A stretch of DNA of 64,000 bases from an uncultured Pseudomonadales bacterium (lineage in GTDB: Bacteria > Pseudomonadota > Gammaproteobacteria > Pseudomonadales > Azotimanducaceae). The DNA is taken from NCBI GenBank assembly GCA_958296195.1, contig OY282455.1, forward strand, positions 2,108,001-2,172,000. The letters run 5' to 3'. Below the pieces are notes generated by a model, which was not told where the DNA came from, made no database searches, and worked only from the letters and a program-made list of their open reading frames with translations. Shown here in pieces: positions 16,101 through 32,616 of this stretch. Made by a program: the position numbers and the translations under genes. Each line of letters begins with the position of its first letter. Within the stretch, counting starts at the first letter, position 1.

Positions 16101-16610
16101 TCCAAGCAGCGCCTGTTCGGTTTGGTGGCCGATCATTGGACCCATCGCCAAAATTCGGGCAAGGAGAGGGGCAAACTCGTCATGGACGACGGCTCCGCCC
16201 GCATGGGGGCTGTTCTGCACCCGGAGGTCTATGAGAGAAGCAAGGAAAAAGTGCAGAAGGGCGGCATTCTCGTGCTCGAAGGCGTCGTGGAGTTCGATCA
16301 ATACAGCGGCGCTGAGCAGTTGCGCGTTGACAACGCCTTGACCATTGAGGAATGGCGGCAGCGGCCCGGTGCTTGCCTGCGCATCGACCTCAACGGCGAC
16401 GAGCCGCCCGAGGGCTTGCCGAAGCGCTTGGCGGCGGCGCTCAAGCCGCACCAGGTGGACCAGGGCGGCTGCCAAGTCACCATCGGCTACCAAGCGGCGG
16501 AGGTGGCGGGTTCGGTTCGCCTCGGCTGGCGGGTCAAGCCCGCCGAAACCCTGCTGCAGCGCCTGAAGGCCGAATTCGGTGACGACCGGGTGCAGATGGA
16601 ATTCAACTAG
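13152..16610 (+). CDS. dnaE: DNA polymerase III alpha subunit
   Basis: Replicative polymerase of 1152 residues. N-terminal PHP domain (FVHLRTHSEYSIADG), polymerase active site PDFDVDFC with the catalytic Asp pair, GPGRGSGAGSLVAYAL, then the helix-hairpin-helix and OB regions. The start is ATG 13152 inside the rnhB stop; an open frame running back to 12657 is rnhB read in another frame and is not part of the protein. The last about 58 codons are duplicated near 23415, marking the duplication joint. accA, which usually follows in relatives, is absent here. Confidence 0.97.
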   Translation: MSSAGFVHLRTHSEYSIADGLAKVVDLANRAAELGMSAVALTDLGNLFGLIKFYRACLDKGVKPILGIDLHHQPEGAEDKRRLTVLACSAAGYRNLLRLTSCIYTGAEGRKTAPMQRIVEYGEGLIVLSGAPDTEIGQALLHGDTASAERAAAQLARHFPERFYLEVLRTGRAEEETCLRAAVGLAERLDLPVVATNDACFLTAEHFAAHETRVCINEGWVVHDARRPRRHCPEQHLKSADAMTKLFADLPEAVLNTLEVAKRCTVELELGRSCLPNYPAPEGEALADYLEKTAREGLATRLAEIKALGAYSADEQVYQDRLTYELGVINETGYPGYFLIVMEFIAWAKEQQIPVGPGRGSGAGSLVAYALGITDLDPVYYDLLFERFLNPERVSMPDFDVDFCVEGRDRVIQHVSTLYGQEAVSQIATFGSMAAKAVVRDVARAQGKPYALGDKLSKLIPNKLDITLADAIKESAELKALVQADEEAGEVMDMAYQLEGVVRNVGQHAGGVVIAPSRLTDFVPLYVDERSGSLISQYDKDDVEQAGLVKFDFLGLTTLTIIDWAVQAVNRAIRARGGAPIDIGRLPMDDRDTYNLLKRTETVGVFQLESRGMKELIRRLQPDSIDDVIALVALYRPGPLQNEADKDYIERKHGRAKSTYPHPELEPVLKGTFGVVIYQEQVMQIAQVLAGFSLGQADILRKAMGKKNPEEMAKVRGRFLAGAEAHGVKAALANKLFDQMATFAGYAFNKSHSATYALVAYQTAWLKAHHPAEFMAATLSAKMEHTDKVAELIHEVRRMRLKLRPPCVNRSQFRFSVVDGDIVYGLGAVRGVGSGPVESIIAARQTEPFASLRTFCLRVDAKRVNKRVHEALIHAGAMDEFAELGESVEAVRARLLSELDQALQAADQASRSAALGINDMFGGVSEEEQPALAPPSAKALTYAERLELEMSALGLYLTGHPVDPYLPEFKDHCRRLADVQASPSKQRLFGLVADHWTHRQNSGKERGKLVMDDGSARMGAVLHPEVYERSKEKVQKGGILVLEGVVEFDQYSGAEQLRVDNALTIEEWRQRPGACLRIDLNGDEPPEGLPKRLAAALKPHQVDQGGCQVTIGYQAAEVAGSVRLGWRVKPAETLLQRLKAEFGDDRVQMEFN

Positions 16611-16673
16611 CGGCTCGCAAGCCACCTGAACGAAGGTTTGACGACGAACTTCGCCCTAACTAGACTTGGGCGC

Positions 16674-17951
16674 ATGAGCAGGAAGCGATCCGAAACGACA
16701 TTGGCGGGTGTGGAAAAGGCCAAAGTCCGGATTTCAAGCTCCGGCAATCCGTTCCGTCCCGGAGCGGGAAGCAAGCCGCCTCATTTCGCGGGGCGGGAGG
16801 ACGACTGGAGGGTCTTCGACTCTTGCCTGTCCTGCCTGCAGGATGGCGGCGTTCCCTTGGGACCCATGGTGCTGTTCGGCCCCCGGGGCAACGGCAAGAC
16901 GGTGTTGATGCACCGCATGGCCGAGCAGGCGCAGGGGCTGGGCATGAATGCACTCCACATCGACCCTCAGGACGTCGATTCGCCCGAACAACTGCAGCTG
17001 ACCTTGGCCAACGCAGTCGAGGCGGGGGCGGGCGTTCCAGCAGGCCGTTCATGGCAGTGGGGCGGCAAGGCGGGCTTCGGCGGTGCGGGCGTGGACGGAA
17101 GGAAGGTCGAAACACGCACTCTGCCGACACCGAAGGCGCGGGATTCCATGCTCCGGCTCGGCGAAACGCCGACCGTCATCCTGCTCGACGAAGCCCACCG
17201 ACTTTCCCAGGCGGGGGGAGCGCTGCTGCTGTGCGCCGAGCAGTCCGCCCGCGGCGAAGGTGCGAAGGTGCAGTTGGTTCTGGCCGGCACCCCGGACCTT
17301 CCGGACGCCCTGCGCCGCATGGAGGCGACGTTCTGGGACAGACTGGAGCAGCGTCCGCGCCCCTTGGGGCGGTTGGACAGGAGCGCGAGCTTGGCGGCCG
17401 TGGCGAAGCCCATGGAAGCGTCCGTGACGCTCGCCGCCGGGGATGAGATCATGCGCCTCACCTCGGGATACCCGTATTTCCTGCAGATTATGGGGCGGTC
17501 CCTGTGGGACGCTCTGCCGCCGCCTCGGGCCGAGATCGACTCCGCCGCCGTGGCGCGGGCGGCGGATGAATTCCTTGAAGCGAAAGATGCCTACTACTTC
17601 GACCGGGTGGCCGACTTGGAGGCGAAGGGACTCTTGATGGCCGCCTACGAAGTGGCCCGCACGGCGCGCGCTACCGGGGAGGGCTTGAGGAACGCGGCTG
17701 TCCAGGAGGCTGTGCGGCGAAGTGCGGGAGGAGCGGCGGATGCGGACAGGGACCACGCCTTGGTGCGGGGGCTGAGGCACGAGGGATTTTTGTGGCGAGA
17801 CAAACTGCAGCAGCCGTGGACCTGTGGGATACCGACCTTGGCGGGCTGCGTCATTGAGTACGTCAACAGGGAGTACGCGCCGGCCGTCGCAGCGGCAAAG
17901 AAAACGGCCAAGCGACAAGCGGGGACGTCCGAGCCACCCCCGTTCGGGTGA
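16674..17951 (+). CDS. AAA ATPase of the 'GRED' accessory type
   Basis: About 425 residues from ATG 16674 (a TTG at 16638 is an alternative start). A Pro-rich entry segment NPFRPGAGSKPPHFAGRED leads to Walker A GPRGNGKT and Walker B VILLDEAH, then a helical C-terminal region ending in CGIPTLAGCVIEYV. It is a distant full-length relative of the ATPase at 33257-34693, which has the same layout and a matching YEFGIPSFAKHTVEYA end. The function of this ATPase type is unknown to me. In unit B only a fragment of it remains. Confidence 0.7.
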   Translation: MSRKRSETTLAGVEKAKVRISSSGNPFRPGAGSKPPHFAGREDDWRVFDSCLSCLQDGGVPLGPMVLFGPRGNGKTVLMHRMAEQAQGLGMNALHIDPQDVDSPEQLQLTLANAVEAGAGVPAGRSWQWGGKAGFGGAGVDGRKVETRTLPTPKARDSMLRLGETPTVILLDEAHRLSQAGGALLLCAEQSARGEGAKVQLVLAGTPDLPDALRRMEATFWDRLEQRPRPLGRLDRSASLAAVAKPMEASVTLAAGDEIMRLTSGYPYFLQIMGRSLWDALPPPRAEIDSAAVARAADEFLEAKDAYYFDRVADLEAKGLLMAAYEVARTARATGEGLRNAAVQEAVRRSAGGAADADRDHALVRGLRHEGFLWRDKLQQPWTCGIPTLAGCVIEYVNREYAPAVAAAKKTAKRQAGTSEPPPFG

Positions 17952-18097
17952 CGTTTTTCGGCGGGAGCACCTCTGTCGCCCGTTGGATCCGGACCTTCAT
18001 GGGGCGCTTGCTGGATCGTGTCTTACGTCAGCCTGTCGGTCTGCGCCGCTGGTCTTTTGGTGATTCAAACTGAGGCACTGCCGCTTGCTGCTGCAAT

Positions 18098-18126: not shown

Positions 18127-18154
18127 GCCGCAATGAACTTAGCTATTTCCTTGA

Positions 18155-18174
18155 CCCCCCCCCCCCCCCCCCCC
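18155..18174. repeat. poly-C tract (20 C) in the operon leader
   Basis: An uninterrupted run of 20 C about 30 bases after the promoter -10 box. Unit B has 22 C at the matching place. Exact lengths may be affected by sequencing. Confidence 0.85.
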
Positions 18175-18258
18175 GCAAAAGCGCGGCCAGGAAGACCGTT
18201 GCGCAATGCGCGTGCTGAGGACTCGGCTCAAGCGTAAGCCGCCGATTTTCGTTGCCCG

Positions 18259-18656
18259 ATGGGACTAGGACTGAAAGTCCGGTTCGTGGCTGCGCAGCAG
18301 GTCCCCTTCACCATCGACGCGGACTTCGACTTGGGCGAAGCCGCCGCTCCCTATTCCCGTGCGCACGGCGCCGACGTGGTCGTTCGCCGCGGTGTGGTGC
18401 CGTTGTCGCTGCCGCGTCCAGAACAGCGGGGGGTTGCCTGGCAACACGCCGCCGGCCGCACGTTGATCCTGACGCCCTGCGGTGTGCGCTTCCTCGTCGA
18501 GGGCGGCTCGACCATGCGCTACGCGCTCGATGGCGGCGCCTCGCCGGCGGACCTGCGGCTGTTCTTCCTGGGCACGGCGCTTAGTGTGCTGGCTGCGCAG
18601 CGCGGCCTGCTGCCCCTGAAGGCAAGCGCCGTTGCCAACGGTGAGGACGTGCATGC
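18259..18656 (+). pseudogene. truncated HprK-like kinase 1, unit A
   Basis: Matches the first about 133 residues of the intact kinase at 24212 (TIDADFDLGEAAAP, LAAQRGLLPLKASAV, GEDVHAL) and then stops matching immediately before the P-loop. A deletion joins it, out of frame, to the sulfotransferase remnant. Without the P-loop it cannot be an active kinase. Confidence 0.85.
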
Positions 18657-18892
18657 CCTCGGCGGCGGCCGAGCCGGTTGGCATCAACGACGTCGGGAGT
18701 GCGATGTCCAGCGCCCTTTACCACGGCCGGCCGTGGTTCGACAGCGTGGCGGGCATCTCATCGTCGGACTGCACGGAGGACGAGGCCGAATCCCTGCGTC
18801 CGGCCGTTGTCCGATTCTGGGCCCAGGAGGCGAAGCGCGAGGTCCTGGCCGCCCATGGGGCGACGATGGCCCGTTTCGGCTATTCATGTTGA
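18657..18892 (+). pseudogene. sulfotransferase remnant, unit A
   Basis: Two pieces of the sulfotransferase intact at 25201: an internal piece (AAEPVGINDVGSAM to RFWAQEA) and the last about 16 residues (VLAAHGATMARFGYSC). Both the cofactor loop YPRSGNTW and the RNPLD motif are deleted, so it is inactive. It may still be translated from an internal start at 18632. Confidence 0.85.
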
Positions 18893-18901
18893 GCTACTTG
18901 G

Positions 18902-19204
18902 ATGAGGAATATGGAGATCACGCCAAAAAGCCGCGTAAGACGCACTCCCGACAACTTCGTCAACGCCATGCTGGACGACGATCTGGTGTTCATGGACGTT
19001 GCCGAAGGCGAGTTCTACGGCCTCCGGGAAGCGGGCTTGCGCGTCTGGCAACTCATTGAGGAGGACAGCGGGACCTGGACGCAGGTTCAGGAGTTGACGG
19101 CGGCTCTGTGCGCCGAATTCAGGGTCGACGAGGAGAAGTGCCTGCGCGACCTGGCGGTGCTTCTGGATGAACTGCAGGCGGTCGGCCTGGTCGAGCTGTC
19201 GTAG
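18902..19204 (+). CDS. PqqD-like RiPP recognition protein (B1-type), unit A
   Basis: A 100-residue PqqD-fold protein (VRRTPDNFVNAMLDDDLVFMD, EFYGLREAGLRVWQLIEE, winged-helix end VLLDELQAVGLVEL). Such proteins are the leader-binding element of lasso peptide and PQQ systems. The start ATG 18902 matches the coupled start of the unit B copy. Nearly all residues are identical between copies, and the frame is intact in both, suggesting both are still selected. It would be expected to bind the W-x2-P-x-L leader of the precursors at 22078 and 30066. Confidence 0.85.
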   Translation: MRNMEITPKSRVRRTPDNFVNAMLDDDLVFMDVAEGEFYGLREAGLRVWQLIEEDSGTWTQVQELTAALCAEFRVDEEKCLRDLAVLLDELQAVGLVELS

Positions 19205-19225
19205 GTCGAGCGGCCGCAGGAAGGC

Positions 19226-19924
19226 ATGATTCAGCTCACGACCAGCGGTGTGCGCATTGCCAGGGACGACGCCTGGGCGGCGCAGCAGCAGGAGTTCGCG
19301 CAACGCCACTGCGTTGTGCTGGAGGGCTTTCTCGACGATTCCATTTTGCGCCATATCCCCCGGATGCTGGAGCAGGGCGAGTTCGACCTGCGCGGCGACT
19401 TCAATTGCGCAGGGCGGGAATTCGCCAGGGAGCTTACGATGCGGAAGTCTGAAGCGCTGCCGCAGATGCTCTTCTATTTCCTCAATCAACCCCCGCTGCG
19501 CGAGGCGATTGCCGAGCTCACGGGTTGTGAAAAGACCATTCGAACCTTCGTCGGCCGCTGCTTCAAGCACCTTCCGGGCGTCGGTCATTTCGATTCCTGG
19601 CACGGGGACGTCAGGGATGAACGGCTGCATGCCCTGAGCATCAACTTGTCCAGGGAGCCCTTCGAGGGCGGCAACTTGCAGATTCGAAGCAGGAGAACCA
19701 GGGAGGTTTTCCAAACGGTCGGGGCGGACCGGTTTGGGGACGCCTGCCTGTTCCGCATTGACGAATCCCTGCAGCACAGGACTCTTCCGCCACGGGGAAC
19801 CGCGCCCAGGTGTCGCTACGCGGGATGGTTCCGAGCCCAGGGAAGCTTGAGTGAGATAGTGTTGCGAAGCGCATTGTTTCCACTTGGGCGGCACCCGTCG
19901 GTTCGAAGAACGGACCGAGCATGA
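19226..19924 (+). CDS. 2OG-Fe(II) oxygenase 1, unit A
   Basis: About 232 residues. The iron triad is visible as H126-x-D128 (SWHGDV) and H184 (SLQHRT), with a downstream Arg in RCRYAGWF for 2-oxoglutarate; FEGGNLQIR is typical of the double-stranded beta-helix. It would hydroxylate or otherwise oxidise a peptide or amino acid side chain. Compared with the unit B copy it has a 33-base insertion just before the last 24 codons, changing the C-terminal tail. It overlaps the kinase 2 remnant by four bases (ATGA). Confidence 0.82.
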   Translation: MIQLTTSGVRIARDDAWAAQQQEFAQRHCVVLEGFLDDSILRHIPRMLEQGEFDLRGDFNCAGREFARELTMRKSEALPQMLFYFLNQPPLREAIAELTGCEKTIRTFVGRCFKHLPGVGHFDSWHGDVRDERLHALSINLSREPFEGGNLQIRSRRTREVFQTVGADRFGDACLFRIDESLQHRTLPPRGTAPRCRYAGWFRAQGSLSEIVLRSALFPLGRHPSVRRTDRA

Positions 19925-20031
19925 CTGCGCCGGAAGTTCCCTTCACCGTCGATGCGGACCTCGACCTGGACGAAGCGGCGGCGCTCTCAGCGCTGCCGGC
20001 CGGTCCACTTCCGGCGCTGGATTGCGCATGA
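19921..20031 (+). pseudogene. internally deleted HprK-like kinase 2, unit A
   Basis: An in-frame 36-codon remnant: the first about 21 residues (MTAPEVPFTVDADLDLDEAA) joined to the last about 13 (ALPAGPLPALDC) of the kinase intact at 27080. About 830 bases are missing, including the P-loop. Start and stop overlaps with its neighbours are kept, so translation coupling to the cyclase gene survives. Confidence 0.88.
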
Positions 20032-21998
20032 CGGCCTTGGCCGGGATCTTTCTCCGCGACGGGCGGCCGGTGGACCGCAAGCGCCTCACCGCCGTGGCCG
20101 ACTCCCTGCGGCCCTTCGGCGCCGGAGCTCCAACGGTGTGGCGCAGTGGCCCCGCGGGGTTGGTGAAGACGGTCTCCGTCGTTGCCACGCCGCAGGACGA
20201 GTTCGACAGCCAGCCGATCGAATTGCATGGCGGACGTGTCCTGTTGTTCGACGGCTTCCTCAACCACCGCGAGGAGCTGGTCTCCGCGCTGGGCCTGACC
20301 CAGGGCGAAGCGCAGCGGACTGCGGACGGCGCCCTGTTCGCCCGCGCCGTGGCGCGTTGGGGGGACGCGGCCGCCGAGCGGGCGGAAGGCTGGTTCACCG
20401 CCGTGCTCTGGGACCCGCACACCCGCGTCCTGCAAGCCGTCTGCTCACCGATCACGGCGCCGCCGCTGCATTTCTCCGTCGATTCCCGCCGGGTGATCAT
20501 TGCCACCGTTCCCCGCGGCATCTTCGCGTGGGGCGACGTCCCGCGCCGTCTCGACGACGCGTATTTCGCCAGCAGCCTCATTCTCGACTACGGCGACCCC
20601 CGCGCCACGTTCTATCAGGGCGTGTCCTCCCTCTCTCCCGGCGAGATGCTGACGGTCGGGCCGCGCAAGGACGAAGTGAGGCGCTACTACGATCTGGCCG
20701 AGCGGGCTCGTCCGGTTCGGCTGCCCAAGGATGAGGACTATGTGGAGGCGGCCAACGACTTGCTGCGCGGCGCGGTGCGCAGCGTGTTGCGGGCGCCGGA
20801 GACGCCGGCCGTCCTGATGAGCGGCGGATTCGACTCGACGTCGGTTGCGGTCACGGCCATGGAGGTTCTGGAGGGGTGTCCCGGCGCGGCGCCGCTCATC
20901 TCCTTCACGGCGGTCCCCGAGCCGGGGTGGGACGGACGCGTTCCGGCGGGCCATACGGGAGACGAGGGCGATGCGGTGCGGGCTCTGGCGCGGATGCATC
21001 CGGATCTCGACGCCCGGTTCGTCGCGGCCGCGGGCCGCAGCGTCGCCGACCCGCAGATGCGGATGTTCGAGCTGGCGGAGTTCCCCATGCGCAACCCCGG
21101 CAACGCGTACTGGATCCATGAATGCCTGCGCCAGGCCGCGGCCGCGGGGCGGCGCGTCGTCCTGCACGGCACCGGCGGCGGCCACATGCTCAGCCGCAGC
21201 GGCTACGGGCGCTTGAGCGATGCGTTCCGCGCTGGGCGCTGGCGGGCCCTGTGGCGGATGGCCGCCGGTCTGCCGCACGGGCGGCTCGGCCGGTTCTCGC
21301 CCCTGCTGCGCCACGCAGTCCTTCCCAACCTGCCCGAGGGGATGCACCGCGTCCTGCGCAAGGTTGCGTACGGCGACCGCGGCTGGCGCGGGTACAGCCC
21401 CGTCCATCCCGACTACGCCCGCTCCGCGGGAGTGGACGAACGCGCCCGGGAACGGGGCTTCGATCCCTTTTTCAAGCAGCATCCGTCCGGCCAGGAAGCG
21501 GCGCTGCGCGCGCTGTCGAGGCCGATTGTGCGCAACGCCAGAGCGTCGTTCCGGGCACTGGGGGTCCTCCACGGCGTTGCGCTCCGGGATCCGCTCCTCG
21601 AGCGCCGGCTGATGGAGTGGGGCTGCGGGCTGCCGTACGACCAGTTTCTGCGCGAGGGCCGGAGCCACATGCTGGTCCGAAGGCTCATGCAGGATCGGCT
21701 GCCGGCCGAGATTCTGGATGGGCCCAAGGGCCTGCAGGCAGCGGACTGGCACTTGCGGATCACCCGCCGGCTGCCGGAAATCCGCATGACCCTGGAGCGC
21801 TGGCGCGACGATCCCGCCGTCGCCGGACGGCTCGACCTCGATCGCCTGCTGCGCGCCCTGGACACCTGGCCGGAGTACACCCCGTTGTCGGCTCGCGACC
21901 ATCCCGACTGGCTGGTGCTGCGCCACCTGCCCCGCGCGCTCAATGCCGGGCGTTTCATCAAGTGGGTCGAGGGCGGCGGCAATTGGGCGGCGATGTGA
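20028..21998 (+). CDS. asparagine-synthetase-like lasso cyclase (C-type), unit A, intact
   Basis: A 656-residue AsnB-like protein. The N-terminal glutaminase domain starts MTALAGIF, so the catalytic Cys 2 of true asparagine synthetases is absent. The ATP-pyrophosphatase loop is SGGFDS (265-270). Both features fit lasso peptide macrolactam synthetases, which adenylate an Asp or Glu side chain of the precursor and close a ring with its N-terminus. ATG overlaps the kinase 2 stop. The unit B copy is frameshifted, so this is the only intact cyclase in the window. Confidence 0.85.
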   Translation: MTALAGIFLRDGRPVDRKRLTAVADSLRPFGAGAPTVWRSGPAGLVKTVSVVATPQDEFDSQPIELHGGRVLLFDGFLNHREELVSALGLTQGEAQRTADGALFARAVARWGDAAAERAEGWFTAVLWDPHTRVLQAVCSPITAPPLHFSVDSRRVIIATVPRGIFAWGDVPRRLDDAYFASSLILDYGDPRATFYQGVSSLSPGEMLTVGPRKDEVRRYYDLAERARPVRLPKDEDYVEAANDLLRGAVRSVLRAPETPAVLMSGGFDSTSVAVTAMEVLEGCPGAAPLISFTAVPEPGWDGRVPAGHTGDEGDAVRALARMHPDLDARFVAAAGRSVADPQMRMFELAEFPMRNPGNAYWIHECLRQAAAAGRRVVLHGTGGGHMLSRSGYGRLSDAFRAGRWRALWRMAAGLPHGRLGRFSPLLRHAVLPNLPEGMHRVLRKVAYGDRGWRGYSPVHPDYARSAGVDERARERGFDPFFKQHPSGQEAALRALSRPIVRNARASFRALGVLHGVALRDPLLERRLMEWGCGLPYDQFLREGRSHMLVRRLMQDRLPAEILDGPKGLQAADWHLRITRRLPEIRMTLERWRDDPAVAGRLDLDRLLRALDTWPEYTPLSARDHPDWLVLRHLPRALNAGRFIKWVEGGGNWAAM

Positions 21999-22077: not shown

Positions 22078-22236
22078 ATGGGCAGCGAGAACCAAATGGA
22101 TCCCCCCGACGAGCGCAAGGCTTGGACGGAGCCCCGCTTGGCGCGGTTGGGCACTGACCTGCAGGATGTCGAGGCGGTCAAGTCCTTTGACCCCGATAGT
22201 GATGGCTTGGATCATGACCCACTACCGATGTCGTAA
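22078..22236 (+). CDS. lasso-like RiPP precursor A
   Basis: A 52-residue peptide with AGGAGG nine bases before its ATG. Residues 11-28 (DERKAWTEPRLARLGTDL) match the lasso leader pattern aromatic-x2-P-x-L-x2-LG. After residue 28 it differs completely from precursor B although surrounding DNA is nearly identical. Taking the shared Lys 35 as the last leader residue, the core would be SFDPDSDGLDHDPLPMS, with Asp at position 7 as a possible ring acceptor and a C-terminal Ser. The cleavage point is inferred; the typical Thr before it is Val here, and no Gly starts the core. Confidence 0.75.
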   Translation: MGSENQMDPPDERKAWTEPRLARLGTDLQDVEAVKSFDPDSDGLDHDPLPMS

Positions 22237-22279: not shown

Positions 22280-23179
22280 GTGGTTGTGCCGGAATGCAAA
22301 TTCTCCCGGGTGACGCCCGGGCTGCTGGCCCTGGGCGGGGTGCTTGACCAGGCCGAGTGCGTCGCGCAACGGGCGCTGGCGGCGGATGGCCGCGACGGCC
22401 AAGCGCTCTGGAGGCTTGGCGACATCCATCGGATGCGGGGAAACCTCGACACCGCAAGAGATCTATACCGACGCCTGAGCGAGTCCGGCCCCGATCGGCT
22501 GAAAGCGTCTTGGTTGAGTGCGCTGCTCGACGGCCGCGGGTTGCCGGAAGCGCCGCCCCACGGCACCCATCCCGCCCCATTCGTGCGGATGAAGGATTTC
22601 CTGACCGCGCAGGAGTGCGGCCGCCTGTTCGCGCTGGCGCTGGCTCGGCGCGAGCGCTTCGGCGCCGCACGAGTGGTGCATGAGGGAGGCGGGCGCGTGA
22701 AACCGCAGGCACGAATCACCTTGGAGGCGGAACCACGCGCGCGGCGGGACGTCAGGCTCTGGTTTTTGCCGAGGCTTGAACATGCGATTCCGCAGATCCT
22801 GACGCGCCTGCGCCTAAAGGATCCGGGTCGATACCGCATCACGATGAACATGCGGGTATATCCAGCAGGTGGTTTCTATACCATCCACTGCGACAACAGA
22901 GACGAGCCCTTTCGTGACCGAGTGCTGAGCTTCATCTGTTTTTTCCATCCCGAACCCAGGCGTTTCTCCGGCGGAGACCTTCTTCTCTACGATTCCAACC
23001 AAAGGGGAGGGCATCCGGTTCCTGCTTTCTCGCGCATCGAGCCGTTTCGCGGGGGCATTGTCTTCTTCATGAGCGAAGACTGGCACCAAGTGACGCCTGT
23101 GGAGTGCGATGCCGACGATTTCGGGGCGGGGCGCTTCGTCTTGAGCGGCCACGTCTCCTTCCCCAGCGGCAGCGAATGA
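22280..23179 (+). CDS. prolyl-4-hydroxylase-like 2OG-Fe(II) oxygenase, unit A
   Basis: About 299 residues. Residues 1-80 look like a TPR-type helical repeat (ALWRLGDIHRMRGNLDTARDLY). The C-terminal 200 residues are a P4H-type oxygenase with YTIHCDN (HxD), FSGGDLLLYDSN and DWHQVTPV plus GRFVLSGHV (distal His and 2OG-binding Arg). The ATG used by the unit B copy is lost here, so translation must start at GTG 22280 or 22286. It follows the precursor by 43 bases and may hydroxylate its Pro or Asp residues. Confidence 0.8.
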   Translation: MVVPECKFSRVTPGLLALGGVLDQAECVAQRALAADGRDGQALWRLGDIHRMRGNLDTARDLYRRLSESGPDRLKASWLSALLDGRGLPEAPPHGTHPAPFVRMKDFLTAQECGRLFALALARRERFGAARVVHEGGGRVKPQARITLEAEPRARRDVRLWFLPRLEHAIPQILTRLRLKDPGRYRITMNMRVYPAGGFYTIHCDNRDEPFRDRVLSFICFFHPEPRRFSGGDLLLYDSNQRGGHPVPAFSRIEPFRGGIVFFMSEDWHQVTPVECDADDFGAGRFVLSGHVSFPSGSE

Positions 23180-23296: not shown

Positions 23297-23587
23297 ATGG
23301 ACAGCCATGATCTTCTGCGTCCAGCGTTAGCCGGGCTCGACTGCAAGCGCTTGACGGTCGCGTTCTCCGGCGGCATGGACTCCACCGTGCTGCTCCATCT
23401 TGCGGTGCCGGCGGCGCTCAAGCCGCACCGGGTGGACCAGGGCGGCTGCCAAGTCACCATCGGCTACCAAGCGGCGGAGGTGGCGGGTTCGGTTCGCCTC
23501 GGCTGGCGGGTCAAGCCCGCCGAAACCCTGCTGCAGCGCCTGAAGGCCGAATTCGGCGACGACCGGGTGCTGGTGGAATCCAACTAG
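23297..23587 (+). pseudogene. in-frame chimera: first part of TilS fused to last part of DnaE
   Basis: A 96-codon open frame. The first 38 codons copy tilS (including the PP-loop SGGMDST), and the rest copies the dnaE end (QGGCQVTIGYQAAEVAG to the stop). The joint is at CGGCGG, shared by both parents. It is the scar of the tandem duplication; a product is possible because start and leader of tilS are kept, but a function is unlikely. Confidence 0.92.
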
Positions 23588-24105: not shown

Positions 24106-24127
24106 CCCCCCCCCCCCCCCCCCCCCC
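24106..24127. repeat. poly-C tract (22 C) in the operon leader, unit B
   Basis: Uninterrupted run of 22 C between the promoter and kinase 1. Such tracts change length readily; here a change would alter the untranslated leader rather than a reading frame. Confidence 0.85.
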
Positions 24128-24211
24128 GCAAAAGCGCGGCCAGGAGGACGGTGGCGCAATGCGCGTGTTGAGTCCTCCGCTTAAGCGTAAGCCGCCAATT
24201 TTCGTTGCCCG

Positions 24212-25204: not shown

Positions 25205-26097
25205 CGAGGGCGCACCCGGTGTCCGGCCAACGGCGCATCGCCTGGTTGGCGAGCTACCCGAGATCGGGCAACACCTGGACGCGCCTGCTGTTGGCGAACT
25301 TCCTGTCGGCGGCGGCCGAACCGGTTGGCATCAACGACCTCGGGAGTGCGATGTTCAGTGCCCTTTACCACGGCCGGCCGTGGTTCGACAGCGTGGCGGG
25401 CATCTCATCGTCGGACTGCACGGAGGACGAGGCCGAATCCCTGCGTCCGGCCGTTGTCCGATTCTGGGCCCAGGAGACGCAGCGCAAGGCAACGCCGCTG
25501 TTCTGCAAATCGCATGAAGCCTGCCGCGCTACTCCGGCCGGCGAACCCTTGTTTCCGGACGACGTGACGGTCGGCGCGGTGTACCTGATCCGCAACCCGC
25601 TCGACATCGCCGTGTCCTGGGCGTTTTACTTGGGCGACAAGGGCTTCGCGGACAGCGTCGCCTATCTGAATGCCCGGACAAGTGGCCTAGGAGGCGCCGG
25701 AAACCATGAGCTTCGCCAGCGGTTGTTCGATTGGTCCGGCCACGTCGAGAGCTGGACGGGCGCGTCGTTTCCCGTGCTGACGGTGCGTTACGAAGACCTG
25801 CTTGCGGACACCGCCGGCTGGCTGGGCAAGATCGCTTCGTTCCTGCGCCTCGACGGCGCTTCCGACCGCCGGCGGCTGGAGCAGGCCGTTGCCCACTCGG
25901 CCTTTGCGCGGCTGCAGGAGAACGAAGGCCGCGAAGGCTTCCATAAGAACAGTCCGCACAGCCGGACCCCCTTCTTCCGCTCGGGCGTCGCCGGAGATTG
26001 GGGGCGGCATCTCTCGGCGGCACAGGTGCGCGACGTCCTGGCCGCCCATGGGGCGACGATGGCGCGCTTCGGCTATTCATGTCGAGCTACTGGATGA
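25201..26097 (+). CDS. PAPS-type sulfotransferase, unit B
   Basis: 298 residues with the PAPS-binding loop SYPRSGNTW (18-26) and the 3'-phosphate motif VYLIRNPLDIAVSW (about 127-140), both hallmarks of sulfotransferases, and a C-terminal FRSGVAGDW segment. It probably moves sulfate from PAPS to a hydroxyl on the peptide product or another small molecule. ATG overlaps the kinase 1 stop and its stop overlaps the PqqD start (ATGA both times), so it is tightly bound to the operon. The unit A copy is destroyed. Confidence 0.85.
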   Translation: MTRAHPVSGQRRIAWLASYPRSGNTWTRLLLANFLSAAAEPVGINDLGSAMFSALYHGRPWFDSVAGISSSDCTEDEAESLRPAVVRFWAQETQRKATPLFCKSHEACRATPAGEPLFPDDVTVGAVYLIRNPLDIAVSWAFYLGDKGFADSVAYLNARTSGLGGAGNHELRQRLFDWSGHVESWTGASFPVLTVRYEDLLADTAGWLGKIASFLRLDGASDRRRLEQAVAHSAFARLQENEGREGFHKNSPHSRTPFFRSGVAGDWGRHLSAAQVRDVLAAHGATMARFGYSCRATG

Positions 26098-26396
26098 AGA
26101 ATATGAAGATCACACCGGAAAGCCGCGTAAGACGCACTCCCGACAACTTCGTCAACGCCATGCTGGACGACGATCTGGTGTTCATGGACGTTGCCGAAGG
26201 CCAGTTCTACGGTCTCCGGGAAGCGGGCCTGCGCGTCTGGCAACTCATCGAGGAGGACAGCGGGGCCTGGACGCAGGTTCAGGAGTTGACGACGGCTCTG
26301 TGCGCAGAGTTCAGGGTCGACGAGGAGAAGTGCCGGCGCGACATCGCGGTGCTTCTGGATGAATTGCAGGCGGTCGGCCTGGTCGAGCTGTCGTAG
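26094..26396 (+). CDS. PqqD-like RiPP recognition protein (B1-type), unit B
   Basis: 100 residues, same family and start (MKNMKITPESRV) as the unit A copy, with only a handful of substitutions (for example EGE to EGQ, DLAV to DIAV). ATGA overlap with the sulfotransferase supports the ATG 26094 start. Presumed leader-binding partner of the cyclase. Confidence 0.85.
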   Translation: MKNMKITPESRVRRTPDNFVNAMLDDDLVFMDVAEGQFYGLREAGLRVWQLIEEDSGAWTQVQELTTALCAEFRVDEEKCRRDIAVLLDELQAVGLVELS

Positions 26397-26417: not shown

Positions 26418-27083
26418 ATGATTCAGCTCACGGCCAGCGGTGTGCGCATCGCCAAGGACGACGCGTGGGCGGCGCTGCAGCAGGAGTTTGCGCAACGCCA
26501 TTGCGTTGTGCTCGAAGGCTCTCTCGGCGAGTCCATTTTGTGCCATATCCCCCGGATGCTGGAGCACGGCGAGTTCGACCTGCGCGGCGACTTCAATCGC
26601 GCAGGCCGGGAATTCGCCAGGGAGCTGACGATGCGGAAGTCTGAAACGCTGCCGCGGATGTTCTTCTATTTGCTCAATCAACCCCGGCTGCGCGAGGCGA
26701 TTGCCGAGTTCACGGGTTGTGAACAGACCATTCGAACCTTCGTCGGCCGCTGCTTCAAGCACCTTCCGGGCGTCGGTCTTTTCAATTCTTGGCATAGGGA
26801 CGTCGGGGATGAACGGCTGTATGCCCTGAGCATCAACTTGTCCAGGGAACCCTTCGAGGGCGGCAGCTTGCAGATTCGAAGCAGGAGAACCAAGGAGGTT
26901 TTCCAAACGGTCGGGTCGAATCGGTTTGGGGACTCCTGCCTGTTCCGCATTGACAACTCCCTGGAGCACAGGATTCTTCCGCTACGGGGAACCGCGCCCA
27001 GGTGTCGCTACGCCGGGTGGTTCCGAAGCGCATTGTTTCCACCTGGGCGGGACCAAGTGGTTCCAAGAAAGGACCCGGCATGA
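26418..27083 (+). CDS. 2OG-Fe(II) oxygenase 1, unit B
   Basis: 221 residues. The triad is H126-x-D128 (SWHRDV) and a later His in SLEHRIL, with Arg in RCRYAGWF. It lacks the 33-base insertion of unit A and is probably the ancestral form. Its stop overlaps the start of kinase 2. No close functional assignment is possible beyond an oxygenase acting on the pathway. Confidence 0.82.
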   Translation: MIQLTASGVRIAKDDAWAALQQEFAQRHCVVLEGSLGESILCHIPRMLEHGEFDLRGDFNRAGREFARELTMRKSETLPRMFFYLLNQPRLREAIAEFTGCEQTIRTFVGRCFKHLPGVGLFNSWHRDVGDERLYALSINLSREPFEGGSLQIRSRRTKEVFQTVGSNRFGDSCLFRIDNSLEHRILPLRGTAPRCRYAGWFRSALFPPGRDQVVPRKDPA

Positions 27084-28018
27084 CTGCGCCGGAAGTTCCC
27101 TTCACCGTCGATGCCGACCTCGACCTGGACGAAGCGGCGGCGCCTTGGCTGCGGCCAGGGCGCGCGGACGTCGTCATCAGGCGCGGCGCGGTGCCGGAGT
27201 CGTTGCCGGAGGTGGAGCACGGGGGGCGGTTCTGGAGCGCCGCCCAAGGCCGTTTCCTTGTGAAGGCGCCCCACGGCTTGCGCATCCTGGTTGAAGGCGG
27301 GGAGCGCGTCCGCTACGAGGCGCCCGGCCTGGCGGCGGACGAGGTCCGGCCGTTCCTGCAGGGTTCCGCCTGGGCGGCGCTTGCCTGCCAGCGCGGCCTG
27401 CTGTGCCTGCACGCCAGCGCGGTGGTTTGCGCCGACGGCGTCCATGCGTTCACCGGCGCGTCCAGGGACGGGAAGTCAACGTTGGCGGGTGCGCTCTCCA
27501 TGCGCGGCTATCCGTTCTTCTCGGACGACGTCCTGACGCTCGCGCCGCTCCGCTTCGGCGATGAGGTGCGGTGCTGTTCGCACCAGGACATGAAGCTGCA
27601 CCCGGACGCCATGGCGTTGCTCGGGGCGCGCATCCAGCGGCCCGTGGACAGGGAGGCGGGGGACGGCAAGGCATATGCCCTCCCGCGCCAGCGCTGGCCG
27701 CATGTCTCCGCCAGCCTCAAGGCGCTCTACGTTCTGAAACGGGAACAGCGCCCAGCCCTTGAACAGGGCCCTTGCACTGTGGAGCGCCTTTCAGGGGTCC
27801 AGGCGCTGAACGCATTGCTTCGCACCGTCTTTCGCCCCAAGTTCGCCGTGGCGATCCTGGGCCGCGGCCGGCTCTTCCAACAGCTCGCCGCGCTGCAACC
27901 CCAAATCGGCGTATTCCGGTTCTACCGTCCCTTCGCCCACGAGTGGTTCGACCGAGGGGTGGCCCACATGGCTGAAGCGCTGCCGGCCGGTCCACTTCCT
28001 GCGCTGGATTGCGGATGA
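27080..28018 (+). CDS. HprK-like serine kinase 2, unit B
   Basis: 312 residues from the ATGA overlap at 27080; the open frame back to 27002 is oxygenase sequence. HASAV (111-115), P-loop GASRDGKST (126-134) and GYPFFSDD (143-150) are close to classical HprK-like motifs. It shares N-terminal pattern (VPFTVDADLDLDEAAAPW) with kinase 1, so the two are old paralogs. Having two kinases in one lasso-like cluster is unusual. It is directly coupled to the cyclase gene. Confidence 0.78.
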   Translation: MTAPEVPFTVDADLDLDEAAAPWLRPGRADVVIRRGAVPESLPEVEHGGRFWSAAQGRFLVKAPHGLRILVEGGERVRYEAPGLAADEVRPFLQGSAWAALACQRGLLCLHASAVVCADGVHAFTGASRDGKSTLAGALSMRGYPFFSDDVLTLAPLRFGDEVRCCSHQDMKLHPDAMALLGARIQRPVDREAGDGKAYALPRQRWPHVSASLKALYVLKREQRPALEQGPCTVERLSGVQALNALLRTVFRPKFAVAILGRGRLFQQLAALQPQIGVFRFYRPFAHEWFDRGVAHMAEALPAGPLPALDCG

Positions 28019-29986
28019 CGGCCTTGGCCGCAATCTTTCTCCGCGACGGGCGGCCGGTGGACAGGGAGCGCCTGACCGCCGTGGCCGATTCCCTGCGGCC
28101 CTTCGGCGCCGAAGCTCCGACGGTGTGGCGCGGCGGCCCCGCGGGGTTGGTGAAGACGGTCTCCGTCGTTGCCACGCCGCAGGACGAGTTCGACAGTCAG
28201 CCGATCGAATTGAACGGCGGACGTGTCCTGTTGTTCGACGGCTTCCTCAACCACCGCGAGGAGCTGGTCTCCGCGCTGGGCCTGACTCAGGGCGAGGCGC
28301 TGCGGATTGCGGACGGCGCCCTGTTCGCCCGCGCCGTGGCGCGTTGGGGGGACGCGGCCGCCGAGCGGGCGGAAGGCTGGTTCACCGCCGTGCTCTGGGA
28401 CCCGCACACCCGCGTCCTGCAAGCCGTCTGCTCACCGATCATGGCGCCGCCGCTGCACTTCTCCGTCGATTCCCGCCGGGTGATCGTCGCCACCGTTCCC
28501 CGCGGCATCTTCGCGTGGGGCGATGTCCCGCGTCGTCTCGACGATGCGTATTTCGCCAGCAGCCTCATTCTCGACTACGGCGACGCCCGCGACACGTTCT
28601 ACCAGGGCGTGTCTTCGCTCTCTCCCGGCGAGATGCTGACGGTCGGGCCGCGCACGGACGAAGTGAGGCGCTACTACGATCTGGCCGAGCGGGCTCGCCC
28701 GGTTCGGCTGCCCAAGGATGCGGACTATGTGGAGGCGGCCGGCGACTTGCTGCGCGGCGCGGTCCGCAGCGCGTTGCGGGCGCCGGAGACACCGGCCGTC
28801 CTGATGAGCGGCGGATTCGACTCGACGTCGGTTGCGGTCACGGCCCTGGAGGTTCTGGAAGGGTGTCCCGGCGCGGCGCCGCTCGTCTCTTTTACGGCGG
28901 TCCCCGAGCCGGGGTTTGACGGACGCGTCCCGGCGGGCCAGACGGGAGACGAGGGCGATGCGGTGCGGGCTCTGGCGCGGATGCATCCGCGCCTTGACAC
29001 CCGGTTCGTCGAGGCCGCAGGCCTCAGCGGCGCCGACTCGCGGATACCGATATTCGAGCTGGCGGAGTTCCCCGTGCGCAACCCCGGCAACGGGTACTGG
29101 ATCAATGAATGCCTGCGCCAAGGCCGCGGTCGCGGGGCGGCGCGTCGTCCTGCGCGGGAACGGCGGCGACTTCATGCTCAGTCGCAGCGGCTACGGGCGC
29201 TTGAGCGAGGCGTTTCGCACGGGGCGTTGGTGGGCCCTGTGGCGGATGACCGCCGGCCTGCCGCGCGGGCGGCACGGCCGGTTCTCGCCCCTGCTGCGCC
29301 ACGCAGTCCTTCCCGGCCTGCCCGAGGGGATGCACCGCGTCCTGCGCAAGGTTGCGTTCGGCGGCCGCGGTTGGCGCGGGTACAGCGCCATCCATCCCGA
29401 CTATGCCCGCTCCGCGGGAGTGGACGAGCGCGCCCGGGAACAGGGCTTCGATTCCTATTTCAAGAGGCATCCGTCCGGCCGGGAGGCGGTGTTGCGCATG
29501 CTGTCGGGGCCTCTCTTGCGCAACGGCAGAGCGACGAAGCGGGCCCAGGAGGTCCTCCACGGCGTCGCGATCCGGGATCCGCTCTTCGAACGCCGGCTGA
29601 TGGAGTGGGGCTGCGGGCTGCCGTACGACCAGTTTCTGCGCGAGGGCCGGAGCCACATGCTGGTCCGCAGGCTCATGCAGGATCGGCTGCCGGCAGAGAT
29701 TCTGGATGGGCCCAAGGGCCTGCAGGCGGCGGACTGGCACTTGCGGATCACCCGCCGGCTGCCGGAAATCCGCATGACCCTGGAGCACTGGCGCAAAGAT
29801 CCCGCCGTCGCCGGACGGCTCGATCTCGATCGTCTGCTGAGCGCCTTGGACACCTGGCCGGAGCGCACCCCGTTGTCGGCTTGCGATCACCCTGACTTCC
29901 TGCTGCTGCAATTCCTGCCCCGTGCGCTCAATGCGGGGCGTTTTATCAAGTGGGTCGAGGGCGGCGGCAATTGGGCGGCGATGTGA
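28015..29986 (+). pseudogene. lasso-type cyclase, unit B, frameshifted
   Basis: Full-length copy of the 20028 cyclase, with the same MTALAAIF start and SGGFDS loop. An extra A at 29120-29121 (CCAAGG where unit A has CCAGG) shifts the frame about 368 codons in; the correct C-terminal half continues in another frame to 29986 with no other damage. Either the gene died recently, uses slippage, or this is a sequencing error. As written it makes a protein with a scrambled C-terminus. Confidence 0.88.
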
Positions 29987-30065: not shown

Positions 30066-30221
30066 ATGAGCAGCGAGAACCAAATGGAGACCCCCGACGA
30101 GCGCAAGGCTTGGACGGAGCCCCGCTTGATGCGGTTGGGCACTGACCTGCGGTATGTCAACTCTACCAAGATTCCCTCGGCACCCCAAGAGGCCGACGAT
30201 CATGTGCCACCGGAGTCGTAA
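30066..30221 (+). CDS. lasso-like RiPP precursor B
   Basis: 51 residues; AGGAGG nine bases before ATG. Residues 10-21 and 23-28 are identical to precursor A (PDERKAWTEPRL, RLGTDL). The rest differs: RYVNSTK then a possible core IPSAPQEADDHVPPES. Here Thr 34 sits at the usual leader position -2 if Lys 35 ends the leader, Glu would be core position 7 and Asp position 9, and the last residue is Ser. A starting Ile would be unusual for a lasso core, so the cut site is uncertain. Confidence 0.75.
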   Translation: MSSENQMETPDERKAWTEPRLMRLGTDLRYVNSTKIPSAPQEADDHVPPES

Positions 30222-30276: not shown

Positions 30277-31170
30277 ATGTCCAAATTCATCCGATTGGCG
30301 CCTGGGCTGCTGGCCCCGGGCGGGGTGCTCGACAAGGCCGAGTGCGCTGCGCAAAGGGCGCTGGCGGCGGATGTCCGCAACGGCCAGGTGCTGTGGAGGC
30401 TTGGCGACATATATCGAATGCAGGGAAACTTCGACGCCGCGAGAGATTCTTACCGGTGCCTGAGCGAGTCCGGCCCCGGTCGGCTGAAAGCGTCCTGGTT
30501 GGTCGCGCTGCTGGACGGCCGCGGGTTGCCGGAGGCGGCGCCCCACGGCACCTGTCCCGCCCCGTTCGTGCGGATGAAGGATTTCCTGACCGCGCAGGAG
30601 TGCGACTACATGTTCGCACTGGCGCTGGCTCGGCGCGAGCACTTCGGCGCCGCAAGAGTGTGGAGCAATGCAGAGGAAGGCCCCCGCGTGAAACCGGAGT
30701 CACGAATCACCTTGGAGATGAAACCAGGCGCACGGCGGGACTTCAGGCTCTGGTTTTTGCCGAGGCTTGAACGTGCGATTCCGGAGATCCTGGCGCGCCT
30801 GCGCCTGGAGGATCCGGGGCGATATCGTATTACGATGAATGTGCGGGTATATCCAGCGGGCGGTTTCTATACTGTCCACCGCGACAACAGCGTTGATAGC
30901 CATCGTGACCGAGTGCTGAGCTTCATCTGTTTTTTCCATCCCGAACCCAGGCGTTTCTCCGGCGGGGACCTTCTTCTCTACGATTCCAACCAAAGAGGAG
31001 GGCATCCGGTTCCTGCTTTCTCGCGCATCAAGCCGTTGCGCGGGGGCATCGTCTTCTTCATGAGCGGAGACTGGCACCAGGTGACGCCCGTGGAGTGCGA
31101 TGCCGACGATTTCGGCGCGGGGCGCTTCGTCTTGAGCGGCCACGTTTGCTTCCCCAGCGGCAGCGATTGA
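30277..31170 (+). CDS. prolyl-4-hydroxylase-like 2OG-Fe(II) oxygenase, unit B
   Basis: 297 residues from ATG 30277. TPR-like N-terminus (VLWRLGDIYRMQGNFDAARDSY), then the P4H-type domain with H201-R-D203 (YTVHRDN), FSGGDLLLYDSN, H267 (GDWHQV) and R283 (GRFVLSGHV). It is more divergent from the unit A copy around residues 128-137 and 203-209, near the active site, which may reflect adaptation to a different core peptide. Confidence 0.82.
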   Translation: MSKFIRLAPGLLAPGGVLDKAECAAQRALAADVRNGQVLWRLGDIYRMQGNFDAARDSYRCLSESGPGRLKASWLVALLDGRGLPEAAPHGTCPAPFVRMKDFLTAQECDYMFALALARREHFGAARVWSNAEEGPRVKPESRITLEMKPGARRDFRLWFLPRLERAIPEILARLRLEDPGRYRITMNVRVYPAGGFYTVHRDNSVDSHRDRVLSFICFFHPEPRRFSGGDLLLYDSNQRGGHPVPAFSRIKPLRGGIVFFMSGDWHQVTPVECDADDFGAGRFVLSGHVCFPSGSD

Positions 31171-31227
31171 CCAGCGCCCGCGGGCATGGCCTTGCGCCAT
31201 TGGCGCGAACCTTAACTTGAGCGAAAC

Positions 31228-31258
31228 TGCCGCAGAGGCCGCCAAAGGCTCTGCGGCA
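31228..31258. terminator. hairpin before tilS, unit B
   Basis: Same TGCCGCAGAG/CTCTGCGGCA stem as at 23237; lies 30 bases before tilS. Confidence 0.5.
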
Positions 31259-31287
31259 CTGGTTGGCGGGAACGATGTCGATAGGCG

Positions 31288-32616
31288 ATGGACAACCATG
31301 ATCTTCTGCGTCCAGCGTTAGCCGGATTCGACTGCAAGCGTTTGACGGTCGCGTTCTCCGGCGGCATGGACTCCACCGTGCTGCTCCATCTTGCGGTGCC
31401 GGCGGTGGCTTCGTCAGCGCCGGTGCCGCAGCCGCCGGACCTGCCCGCCTCGGTCCCGACCGGCACTGCGCAAGCGAGCTCGGCTGTCAGCGAAGCGCCA
31501 CTCAGGGCGCTGCACATCAACCACGGCCTGCATCCCGATGCGGACCGATGGGAGGCGCATTGCGCGGCGGTTTGCAACCGCCTTGGCACACCGTTTTTAA
31601 GTCGGCGAGTGCAGGTTGAGGGCGGCAATTTGGAGGCCGCCGCGCGACGCGCCCGCTACCGTGCGTTCAACGAACTGCTCGGCCCCGGCGACCTGCTGCT
31701 GCTTGGCCACCATCAGGACGACCAAGCGGAGACCCTGTTGATGCGCTTGCTCCAGGGCCGGGATGTTCGGCCTATGCCGCGCAGCCGCCGCCTTCCGGGC
31801 GGCGCGGTGATTCTGCGCCCGCTGCTGAACACTCCTAGGCGGAAAATTCGCCACGCAGCCGAAGCCATCGGCGCAACCTGGATCGAGGATCCCAGCAACT
31901 CCGCCCGCCGCTTTGACCGCAACTTCCTGCGCCACGAGATTCTGCCGCGGCTGGCGTCGCACTGGCCCAACGCCAAGGCCGCCTTGGTGAACGCCGGCCG
32001 AGCAAAGGCCGCCCATGACGCCTTGCTGGCGCATCTGCTTGATGAAGACTCCCTTGCGTTGGGCGAGTTGCCGTCGGAGTTGCATGTGCCCGCATTGCGG
32101 GCCTGGCTGGCCCGCTTCGGCGAAACCGGGGCCGGCGACCGGGCGCTGGCGGAGTTCGCCGCCCAAATCAACGCGCGGGCGGACGCCCAACCGGAACTGC
32201 GCTTGGTCCACGGCAGCCTGCGCCGCTGGCGAGGCGCGGTGCGCTACGCAACTTCCTGCGGCGGCTTGGAAAGCAGCTACGCCTTGCAGCCGCCGGGCGT
32301 CCTGTCGCTGCCCCACGGCGAACTGTCCATCAAGCCGGCGAAGGACGGTGGATTTCACGCCAAGGGCGCCGTTCAGGTGCGCTTTCGCCAAGGCGGTGAA
32401 CGCCTCCGCATGGGTGGCCGCTCGCGTTCGCTGAAGACCCTCTTGCAGGCCGCCGCCGTACCTCCCTGGGAACGCGGGGTCCAGCCACTGATTTTCCAAG
32501 GCGACGAACTTCTCGCCGTGCCGGGCGTCGCCGTCGCCGATTTGCCAGCGGGGCCGCCGCGTTGGCAAGCAGCCTGGACGCCGAACCCAAGGGCGTCCGC
32601 AACGAGTCGCTGCTGA
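31288..32616 (+). CDS. tilS: tRNA(Ile)-lysidine synthase
   Basis: 442 residues. PP-loop SGGMDST near residue 25, HINHGLHPDA, ARYRAF, LLGHHQDDQAETLLMRLLQG and NFLRHEILP are diagnostic. The enzyme makes lysidine in the CAU anticodon of an isoleucine tRNA and is essential. A Pro/Ser/Ala-rich insert follows the PP-loop (about residues 38-70). Its first 38 codons are duplicated at 23297. Confidence 0.95.
   Translation: MDNHDLLRPALAGFDCKRLTVAFSGGMDSTVLLHLAVPAVASSAPVPQPPDLPASVPTGTAQASSAVSEAPLRALHINHGLHPDADRWEAHCAAVCNRLGTPFLSRRVQVEGGNLEAAARRARYRAFNELLGPGDLLLLGHHQDDQAETLLMRLLQGRDVRPMPRSRRLPGGAVILRPLLNTPRRKIRHAAEAIGATWIEDPSNSARRFDRNFLRHEILPRLASHWPNAKAALVNAGRAKAAHDALLAHLLDEDSLALGELPSELHVPALRAWLARFGETGAGDRALAEFAAQINARADAQPELRLVHGSLRRWRGAVRYATSCGGLESSYALQPPGVLSLPHGELSIKPAKDGGFHAKGAVQVRFRQGGERLRMGGRSRSLKTLLQAAAVPPWERGVQPLIFQGDELLAVPGVAVADLPAGPPRWQAAWTPNPRASATSRC

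Follow-up and report, generated by a model that had tools for sequence, protein, structure and literature searches.

How could a lasso-type gene cluster work when neither its leader protease nor an exporter stands beside it? The question is raised by a 14.7 kb insert between dnaE and tilS in the stretch analysed here—64,000 nucleotides of contig OY282455.1 from an uncultured Pseudomonadales bacterium, hereafter the window. The initial annotation had read the interval 16432..31405 as two tandem copies of a lasso-peptide-like operon, and these limits do fit the ends of a direct duplication. The reading that we favour, and hold on sequence grounds to be likely, is that of a kinase-bearing (paeninodin-like) lasso-type operon for a ribosomally synthesised and post-translationally modified peptide (RiPP), carried by a horizontally exchanged "spoke" cassette, equipped with a sulfotransferase and supplied in trans with its B2 leader protease. 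The peptide product would probably be decorated with phosphate, hydroxyl and sulfate groups, and the locus may be partly inactivated in this strain.

The enzymes of the operon

Pfam and profile matches bear out the inventory first proposed: a PqqD protein, a cyclase devoid of Cys2, the precursors, two HprK-type kinases, a 3'-phosphoadenosine 5'-phosphosulfate (PAPS) sulfotransferase and, in each operon, two different 2-oxoglutarate (2OG)-Fe(II) oxygenases of family PF13640, the second with tetratricopeptide repeats (TPR). The genes are coupled as had been described, since in copy 2 stop and start codons overlap between kinase A and the sulfotransferase (25201-25204), oxygenase 1 and kinase B (27080-27083), and kinase B and the cyclase (28015-28018). 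PqqD matches TbiB1 (1.7e-10) and PF05402, which together with the cyclase match given below sustains the lasso-like RiPP reading; its match to NF033536 stays below the curated cut-off. A profile built from 25 kinases matches HprK structures at 6e-9, and Foldseek places the model of kinase B (predicted local distance difference test, pLDDT, 88) nearest PEPCK (3e-7) and then HprK/P (1.1e-5), the template-modelling scores being modest (0.30/0.51). Besides, a 636-aa open frame at L020:1239-3149 (reverse strand) matches both the HprK-type kinase and the TPR-2OG oxygenase.

Among 80 named loci examined, 45 hold relatives of PqqD, B2, cyclase and kinase together, and a kinase and a sulfotransferase of the present type stand beside a lasso-type cyclase in seven (L036, L074, L084, L087, L089, L092 and L095). 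The claim of an unrecognised, richer gene set thus stands as to its content—two kinases, a sulfotransferase, two oxygenases—but not as to the kinase and sulfotransferase pair, which is not unique to the window.

The best NCBIfam match of the copy 1 cyclase (cyc1) is the lasso cyclase model NF033535 (1.6e-57; 195 bits, below the cut-off of 525), and TIGR01536 (1.2e-27) and TIGR03108 (1.5e-23) match the cyclase too. The latter two would fit an ordinary asparagine synthetase or exopolysaccharide amidotransferase flanked by unrelated small open reading frames (ORFs), which we hold to be extremely improbable: Cys2 is present in the 11 rows of MCG(I) proteins and in none of the 52 rows of cyclases from B2-bearing loci, cyc1 has Thr2 at this place, and the gene adjoins PqqD and precursors whose leader is conserved while the core has changed. 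In a quick tree of 97 rows (SH-aLRT support, long branches), a starred branch sets cyc1 in a group of 44 rows that includes 24 cyclases of B2-bearing loci and also the Paenibacillus and Bacillus cyclases; among the 53 remaining rows are another 28 cyclases of B2 loci, and the MCG(I) asparagine synthetases form a starred subgroup there. The cyclase does not group with true asparagine synthetases, an outcome that would have refuted the initial annotation, and an identity as asparagine synthetase or XrtA amidotransferase was ruled out on the tree and the absence of Cys2. The forks linking cyc1 to cyclases of Sphingomonadales, Alphaproteobacteria and Acidobacteriaceae reach only 80-89% support, and the branch leading to the window cyclase family is long (1.1).

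A leader protease elsewhere in the genome

No B2 was found in the interval 16432..31405 and no exporter among the genes assigned there, as first noticed. Of the two possibilities first raised, the supported one is that the leader protease is encoded elsewhere. At 1,215.8 kb, 0.9 Mb from the window, a 157-aa frame beside a nucleoside triphosphate (NTP) transferase (PF14907) matches the B2 model NF033537 with 71.1 bits for a cut-off of 33, and is the genome's sole protein above the cut-off of PF13471. Another PF13471 match, at 3,178.9 kb, was rejected as a lasso B2, being below the cut-off and inside a long protein. No complete cyclase adjoins the B2 gene; about 7-11 kb from it are a precursor candidate, a glycosyltransferase, sulfotransferases, a kinase and an apparent C-terminal remnant of a cyclase, the last judged by eye. 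An ATP-binding cassette (ABC) transporter with its own PqqD is found at 0.68 Mb of the same genome.

The 13 matches of cyc1 in the window genome amount to eleven lasso-type cyclases at ten loci, the split copy 2 cyclase (cyc2) being counted once and a protein at 3,855 kb, by NCBIfam an ordinary asparagine synthase, being dropped. All nine of the other cyclases match the lasso model best among NCBIfam models, each time below its cut-off. At each of the nine other cyclase loci, and also at 1,223 kb, there are precursor candidates whose leader is related, and a proline run is present in many; the leader profile that found them started from ten precursors, of which two belong to other loci in the window genome. 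Three candidates—at L021 (E 0.11), at L003 (0.65) and the second one at L017 (9.3)—score amid chance matches and were retained on visual inspection because they show the proline run and the leader motif. Ten of the 14 distinct candidates end with Ser. Cyclase matches and B2 number 13 and 1 in the related genome G062 described below and 6 and 1 in G060, asparagine synthases being counted in; for comparison they number 1 and 1 in the genome of L036, 4 and 2 in that of L074, and 7 and 3 in Sphingomonas QA11.

Several arrangements at these dispersed loci deserve mention for themselves. At G000:C1 204,392-206,187 (L020:3392-5187) three near-identical lasso-type precursor ORFs alternate with fragments of TPR-2OG oxygenase. 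A GT8 glycosyltransferase (PF01501) and a second sulfotransferase family (PF13469) form a module recurring at L018, L022, L023, L024 and L030. In G062 the B2 match and the NTP transferase share one 613-aa open frame (L079:5278-7119, reverse strand) adjoining an ABC transporter, which makes a compact hub. In L036, from a Pseudomonadales metagenome-assembled genome (MAG), four Ser-ending precursor candidates surround one cyclase, with two kinases and one sulfotransferase; the sole above-cut-off B2 of that genome shares this contig, at a distance of about 32 kb from the cyclase.

A cassette shared with a distant genome

A cassette with the same gene order, the two cyclase types discussed below and three precursors occurs in an uncultured gammaproteobacterium (OY282353.1, hereafter G062). 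Nucleotide identity along the operon is 86-94%, most pieces reaching 92-94% and oxygenase 2 86-88%, whereas the DnaE proteins of the two hosts are only 50% identical. This difference indicates that the cassette was exchanged horizontally between distantly related bacteria. The setting differs as well, no match to dnaE or tilS being found within 42 kb around the G062 cassette. Contamination is an unlikely source of the resemblance, given that the copies are not alike and that genes of the host stand at the junctions. The two genomes G060 and G062 have further spokes in common with the window genome: the longest pieces of L024 are 93-95% identical with G060 and 91-96% with G062, and L025 is 90-91% identical with G062. 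Among the hub pieces only the NTP transferase and the ABC transporter give a match, at 72-76%.

As to vehicles, exact peptide patterns scanned against viral contigs gave no relative, and a phage origin was set aside; plasmid carriage was likewise discarded, 33 of 72,556 records matching, all below 60% identity, with 31.6% the best among the matches listed. Neither is the cassette widespread: no match was obtained at 1e-20 in 57 relatives, and at 1e-50 two of 369 genomes of the class matched, the window's own and one at 29% identity, with at most three candidates scored per genome.

In the window the insert consists of two direct units, each beginning with the 3' end of dnaE and finishing with the 5' end of tilS. 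In seven of seven same-genus loci examined, the dnaE-tilS spacing does not exceed about 230 bp, so that the site is empty there (eight other same-genus genomes were matched, one of them without a locus). The dnaE and tilS pieces at the unit ends are 93-97% identical, and the unit junction near 23401 consists of five letters, GGCGG, common to the two parent sequences; both features would suit one operon having simply been duplicated in tandem not long ago, without any exchange between genomes. Such an event predicts that the copies are closest to each other along their full length, and this fails in two patches of the cyclase. At one column, whose residue is a putative metal ligand by analogy with beta-lactam synthetase, cyc1 and one G062 cyclase read GGG (Gly385 in cyc1), cyc2 and the other G062 cyclase GGD. 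In the two patches cyc1 pairs with the GGG cyclase of G062 and cyc2 with the GGD paralog, and the rest pairs by genome (32 sites by type, 38 by genome, 2 crossed). The GGG and GGD types therefore appear older than the local duplication, and the alignment points to two older cyclase types undergoing homogenisation. With, in addition, the 50% identity of the host DnaE, we give duplication without exchange very little credit.

Is the peptide a lasso, and is the locus alive?

A number of observations weigh against the reading that we favour. The scores for NF033535, NF033536 and TIGR04352 are all under the curated cut-offs, and no B2 adjoins the operon. The other points concern the precursors, the cyclases and the constraint on the genes.

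Both window precursors and both intact G062 precursors carry the leader motif WTEPRL (W-17/P-14/L-12), so that the leader is indeed of lasso type, as had been claimed. Precursors 1 and 2 have 24 identical places among their first 28 residues; over the first 34 codons 74% of the amino acids are identical and in the core 35%, for 85-91% between the cyclase copies. In the core, the rates of non-synonymous (dN) and synonymous (dS) change between copies are 0.83 and 0.95, for a dS of 0.10-0.14 in the cyclase, and dN is raised in the leader stretch also, with 12 non-synonymous changes for one synonymous. A core dS this high and the raised leader dN make replacement by recombination as possible as selection, and the divergence of the core may thus be recombinational.

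The core register, W+17, places the motif YxxPxL at -17 to -12 after section 22 of PMC10368454. With it, all four intact precursors of the family, two in the window and two in G062, have Val(-2), Lys3, an acid at 10 and a C-terminal Ser, residue 1 being A, S, G and G. None has Thr(-2), and an acid at 7-9 is found in precursor 1 alone (position 8) and in none of the three others. An alternative register, W+18, suggested by analogy with a sister precursor, would place the acid at 9 and may hold as well; scanning for rings over many registers is weak evidence. The acid at 10, Lys3 and Val(-2), together with the long family branch in the cyclase tree, would also fit a sister class of RiPPs that shares the lasso machinery and makes another amide, for example an unthreaded ring with its closure at residue 10 or an amide linkage to Lys3, which does not vary. 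In a motif scan some of whose hits are surely false, none of eight precursor candidates from six of the ten relatives' loci has Val at W+15, so that the link between Val(-2) and the tree neighbours is drawn from PMC10368454, the loci themselves not bearing it out. In that article Ile or Val(-2) is a minority state of lasso precursors that are phosphorylated, among them precursors from Acidobacteriaceae and Sphingomonadales, groups found next to cyc1 in the tree. The nearest cyclases moreover belong to lasso-type loci, and residue 1 is A, S, G or G in the family. All in all a non-lasso product seems to us unlikely, without being far-fetched.

A stronger competitor for the lasso-type operon with B2 in trans is that the locus is a decaying relic, whose copies have lost different genes, which gives no product in this strain and of which a live version exists in other genomes. 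The claim of two tandem copies is right as far as direct duplication goes, but the two are not both complete, and their breakage is complementary. Relative to copy 2, kinase A and the sulfotransferase of copy 1 are a fused remnant (694 and 546 bp gone) and kinase B lacks 828 bp; in copy 2, cyc2 is frameshifted by a one-base insertion near 29121. The broken cyclase is of the GGD type, which argues for decay, and in 95 of the 97 aligned cyclases—cyc2 is outside this alignment—the column of Gly385 holds D, N or E. Between the frameshift of cyc2 and the Gly385 of cyc1, the strain may hold no competent cyclase of this family. The G062 cassette is damaged as well, at break points different from those of the window: kinase B and oxygenase 2 are cut, and about 1.8 kb (L112:8701-10501) is inserted within one of the three precursors, the 492- and 484-aa open frames of this insertion matching no Pfam family; its two other precursors are intact and both its cyclases are open frames.

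The rates of change speak on both sides. For every operon enzyme dN/dS between the window and G062 is below 1, but often relaxed (0.21-0.97); constraint was assessed by one-sided Fisher tests on rounded counts in six comparisons with G062. Oxygenase 2 of copy 2 shows no constraint (0.97, p 0.47), and between the window copies dN/dS is 0.45-0.72 for the cyclase and both oxygenases, both of which are at home in a relic. On the other hand, every operon gene is kept as an open frame in at least one of the two units, and the GGG cyclase has an uninterrupted frame in two distant genomes, its dN/dS being 0.57 (34 synonymous and 55 non-synonymous changes, p 0.009). Kinase A stands at 0.47, kinase B at 0.54 (p 0.025) and PqqD at 0.21-0.49 (p 0.005 for copy 1); oxygenase 2 of copy 1 gives p 0.00002 and the sulfotransferase p 0.07. 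We regard the relic as a serious possibility, to which we would grant somewhat less than an even chance.

Proposed pathway

If the lasso-type operon is functional, PqqD would bind the W-17/P-14/L-12 leader. On the still-linear peptide the kinases would then phosphorylate, most likely the C-terminal Ser, the two 2OG oxygenases would hydroxylate, and the sulfotransferase would sulfate a hydroxyl. The B2 protease encoded 0.9 Mb away would next cut off the leader, and the cyclase would close the macrolactam after its removal. We infer the sites of phosphate, sulfate and hydroxyl from the enzyme families, and likewise infer the order of modification, the action of B2 and exporter in trans and the product itself. 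The single B2 beside the NTP transferase and the ABC transporter with PqqD at 0.68 Mb might serve the cassette and the nine other cyclase loci.

This leads to a broader scheme, which we put forward quite tentatively. A resident hub, made of one B2 with the NTP transferase and of PqqD with the exporter, would serve dispersed spokes of precursor, cyclase, kinase, sulfotransferase, oxygenase and glycosyltransferase genes, the spokes being mobile between distant bacteria while the hub stays; the window family would yield a phosphorylated, sulfated and hydroxylated peptide with a ten-residue ring, through paired cyclases, one canonical (GGD) and one divergent (GGG). If this were true, cluster-finding tools that look for B2 nearby would overlook many cassettes of cyclase and precursor depending on one leader protease, or label them incomplete. 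The acid fixed at position 10 offers a direct test of the upper size of a lasso ring, and the presence of close relatives of several spokes in bacteria whose DnaE is 50% identical suggests that peptide recipes circulate through a network of exchange.

Features of the insert and its borders

The block common to the window and G062 begins at 18224 in unit 1 and at 24184 in unit 2 (Table 1). Outside it, AAA ATPases are found near several lasso loci of the window genome, at 16638-17951 and 33257-34858 (both by Pfam) and at L017 and L024 (by eye). Poly-C tracts of 20 letters (18155-18174) and 22 letters (24106-24127) stand upstream of the two kinase A copies; elsewhere in the window genome it is poly-C that encodes the proline run with which precursor candidates begin, and the two tracts may be decayed or slippage-prone precursor starts.

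Table 1. Genes and gene remnants of the duplicated insert, with its neighbours, in window positions
Feature	Position	Strand	Basis or remark
dnaE, left neighbour of insert, start uncertain	12657..16610	+	translation; 59-73% identity across 8 same-genus genomes
AAA ATPase (PF13401), intact in unit 1 alone, mostly deleted in unit 2	16638..17951	+	outside G062-shared block
Copy 1 kinase A remnant, N-terminal part	18259..18658	+	694 bp absent relative to copy 2
Copy 1 sulfotransferase remnant, out of frame with kinase remnant	18659..18893	+	comparison with copy 2
Copy 1 PqqD/B1 (lasso RiPP recognition element type), intact	18911..19204	+	PF05402 9.9e-14; NF033536 1.6e-12
Copy 1 2OG-Fe(II) oxygenase 1, intact	19226..19924	+	PF13640 7.8e-7
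Copy 1 kinase B remnant	19921..20031	+	828 bp internal deletion
Copy 1 lasso-type cyclase (cyc1), open frame, GGG type (Gly385)	20028..21998	+	NF033535 1.6e-57; tree; motif column
Precursor 1, 52 aa, C-terminal Ser	22078..22236	+	reading frame; leader common to precursor 2 and G062
Copy 1 TPR and 2OG-Fe(II) oxygenase 2, intact	22280..23179	+	PF13640 9.7e-14; TPR_16 below cut-off
tilS 5' fragment closing unit 1	23297..23400	+	joined to dnaE 3' fragment across GGCGG
dnaE 3' fragment opening unit 2	23401..23587	+	97% identical to dnaE
Copy 2 kinase A (HprK type), intact	24212..25204	+	TIGR04352 2.7e-5 (below cut-off); profile against HprK 6e-9; G062 89.5% identical
Copy 2 PAPS sulfotransferase, intact	25201..26097	+	PF00685 4.6e-20; G062 88% identical
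Copy 2 PqqD/B1	26103..26396	+	NF033536 1.1e-13; TbiB1 1.7e-10
Copy 2 2OG-Fe(II) oxygenase 1, shortened C-terminus	26418..27083	+	33-bp gap relative to copy 1
Copy 2 kinase B (HprK type), intact	27080..28018	+	TIGR04352 1.2e-6 (below cut-off); AlphaFold pLDDT 88; Foldseek PEPCK, HprK/P
Copy 2 cyclase (cyc2), GGD type, broken by one extra base near 29121	28015..29986	+	copy and G062 comparison
Precursor 2, 51 aa, C-terminal Ser	30066..30221	+	reading frame; 78% identical to G062 precursor A over 49 codons
Copy 2 TPR and 2OG-Fe(II) oxygenase 2	30277..31170	+	PF13640 1.5e-14
tilS, right neighbour of insert	31288..32616	+	adjoins dnaE in 7/7 same-genus loci examined

Comparison with known systems

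A literature search of limited depth found no report of a sulfated lasso peptide, nor of a lasso pathway with a distant B2. Phosphorylation of the C-terminal Ser and hydroxylation of the CanE type are described in PMC8498205 and PMC9266682, and a sulfotransferase gene is mentioned for lasso clusters of Firmicutes in the former. Among the closest known systems are those of the paeninodin type, in which an HprK-like kinase (PadeK, ThcoK) acts on the C-terminal Ser: the HprK-type kinase, PqqD, the cyclase without Cys2 and the Ser-ending precursor are common to both. The window differs by its two kinases, its sulfotransferase, its two 2OG oxygenases, Val(-2) and the acid at 10, and its cluster is without B2, exporter and NTP transferase.

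The bsf system of Bradymonas, described in PMC10368454, shares with the window an aromatic residue at -17, Pro-14, Leu-12 and a kinase, and Val(-2) belongs to the minority described there. In bsf the B2, the exporter and the NTP transferase belong to the system itself, the ring is Gly1-Asp8 and Ser3 is phosphorylated, whereas the window has Lys3 and lacks a B2 nearby. The nearest named cyclases, at about 30% identity, include those of Sphingomonas sp. QA11 (L042) and of an alphaproteobacterial MAG (L074), both with a kinase and PqqD; L074 further resembles the window in its sulfotransferase and its relative of oxygenase 2, but has B2 in the locus.

CanE of canucin, a 2OG-Fe(II) oxygenase of a lasso cluster that acts on the linear precursor, is likened here to the window oxygenases by its description in PMC8498205; the window has two different oxygenases, one of them with TPR. 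Finally, the LPP family (PMC13381572) combines an HprK-like kinase with a discrete RiPP recognition element, like the window; of its peptidases, only about one in three has a link with canonical lasso enzymes. Its peptidase is SpI-like and the operon that was expressed lists no cyclase, whereas the window operon has one.

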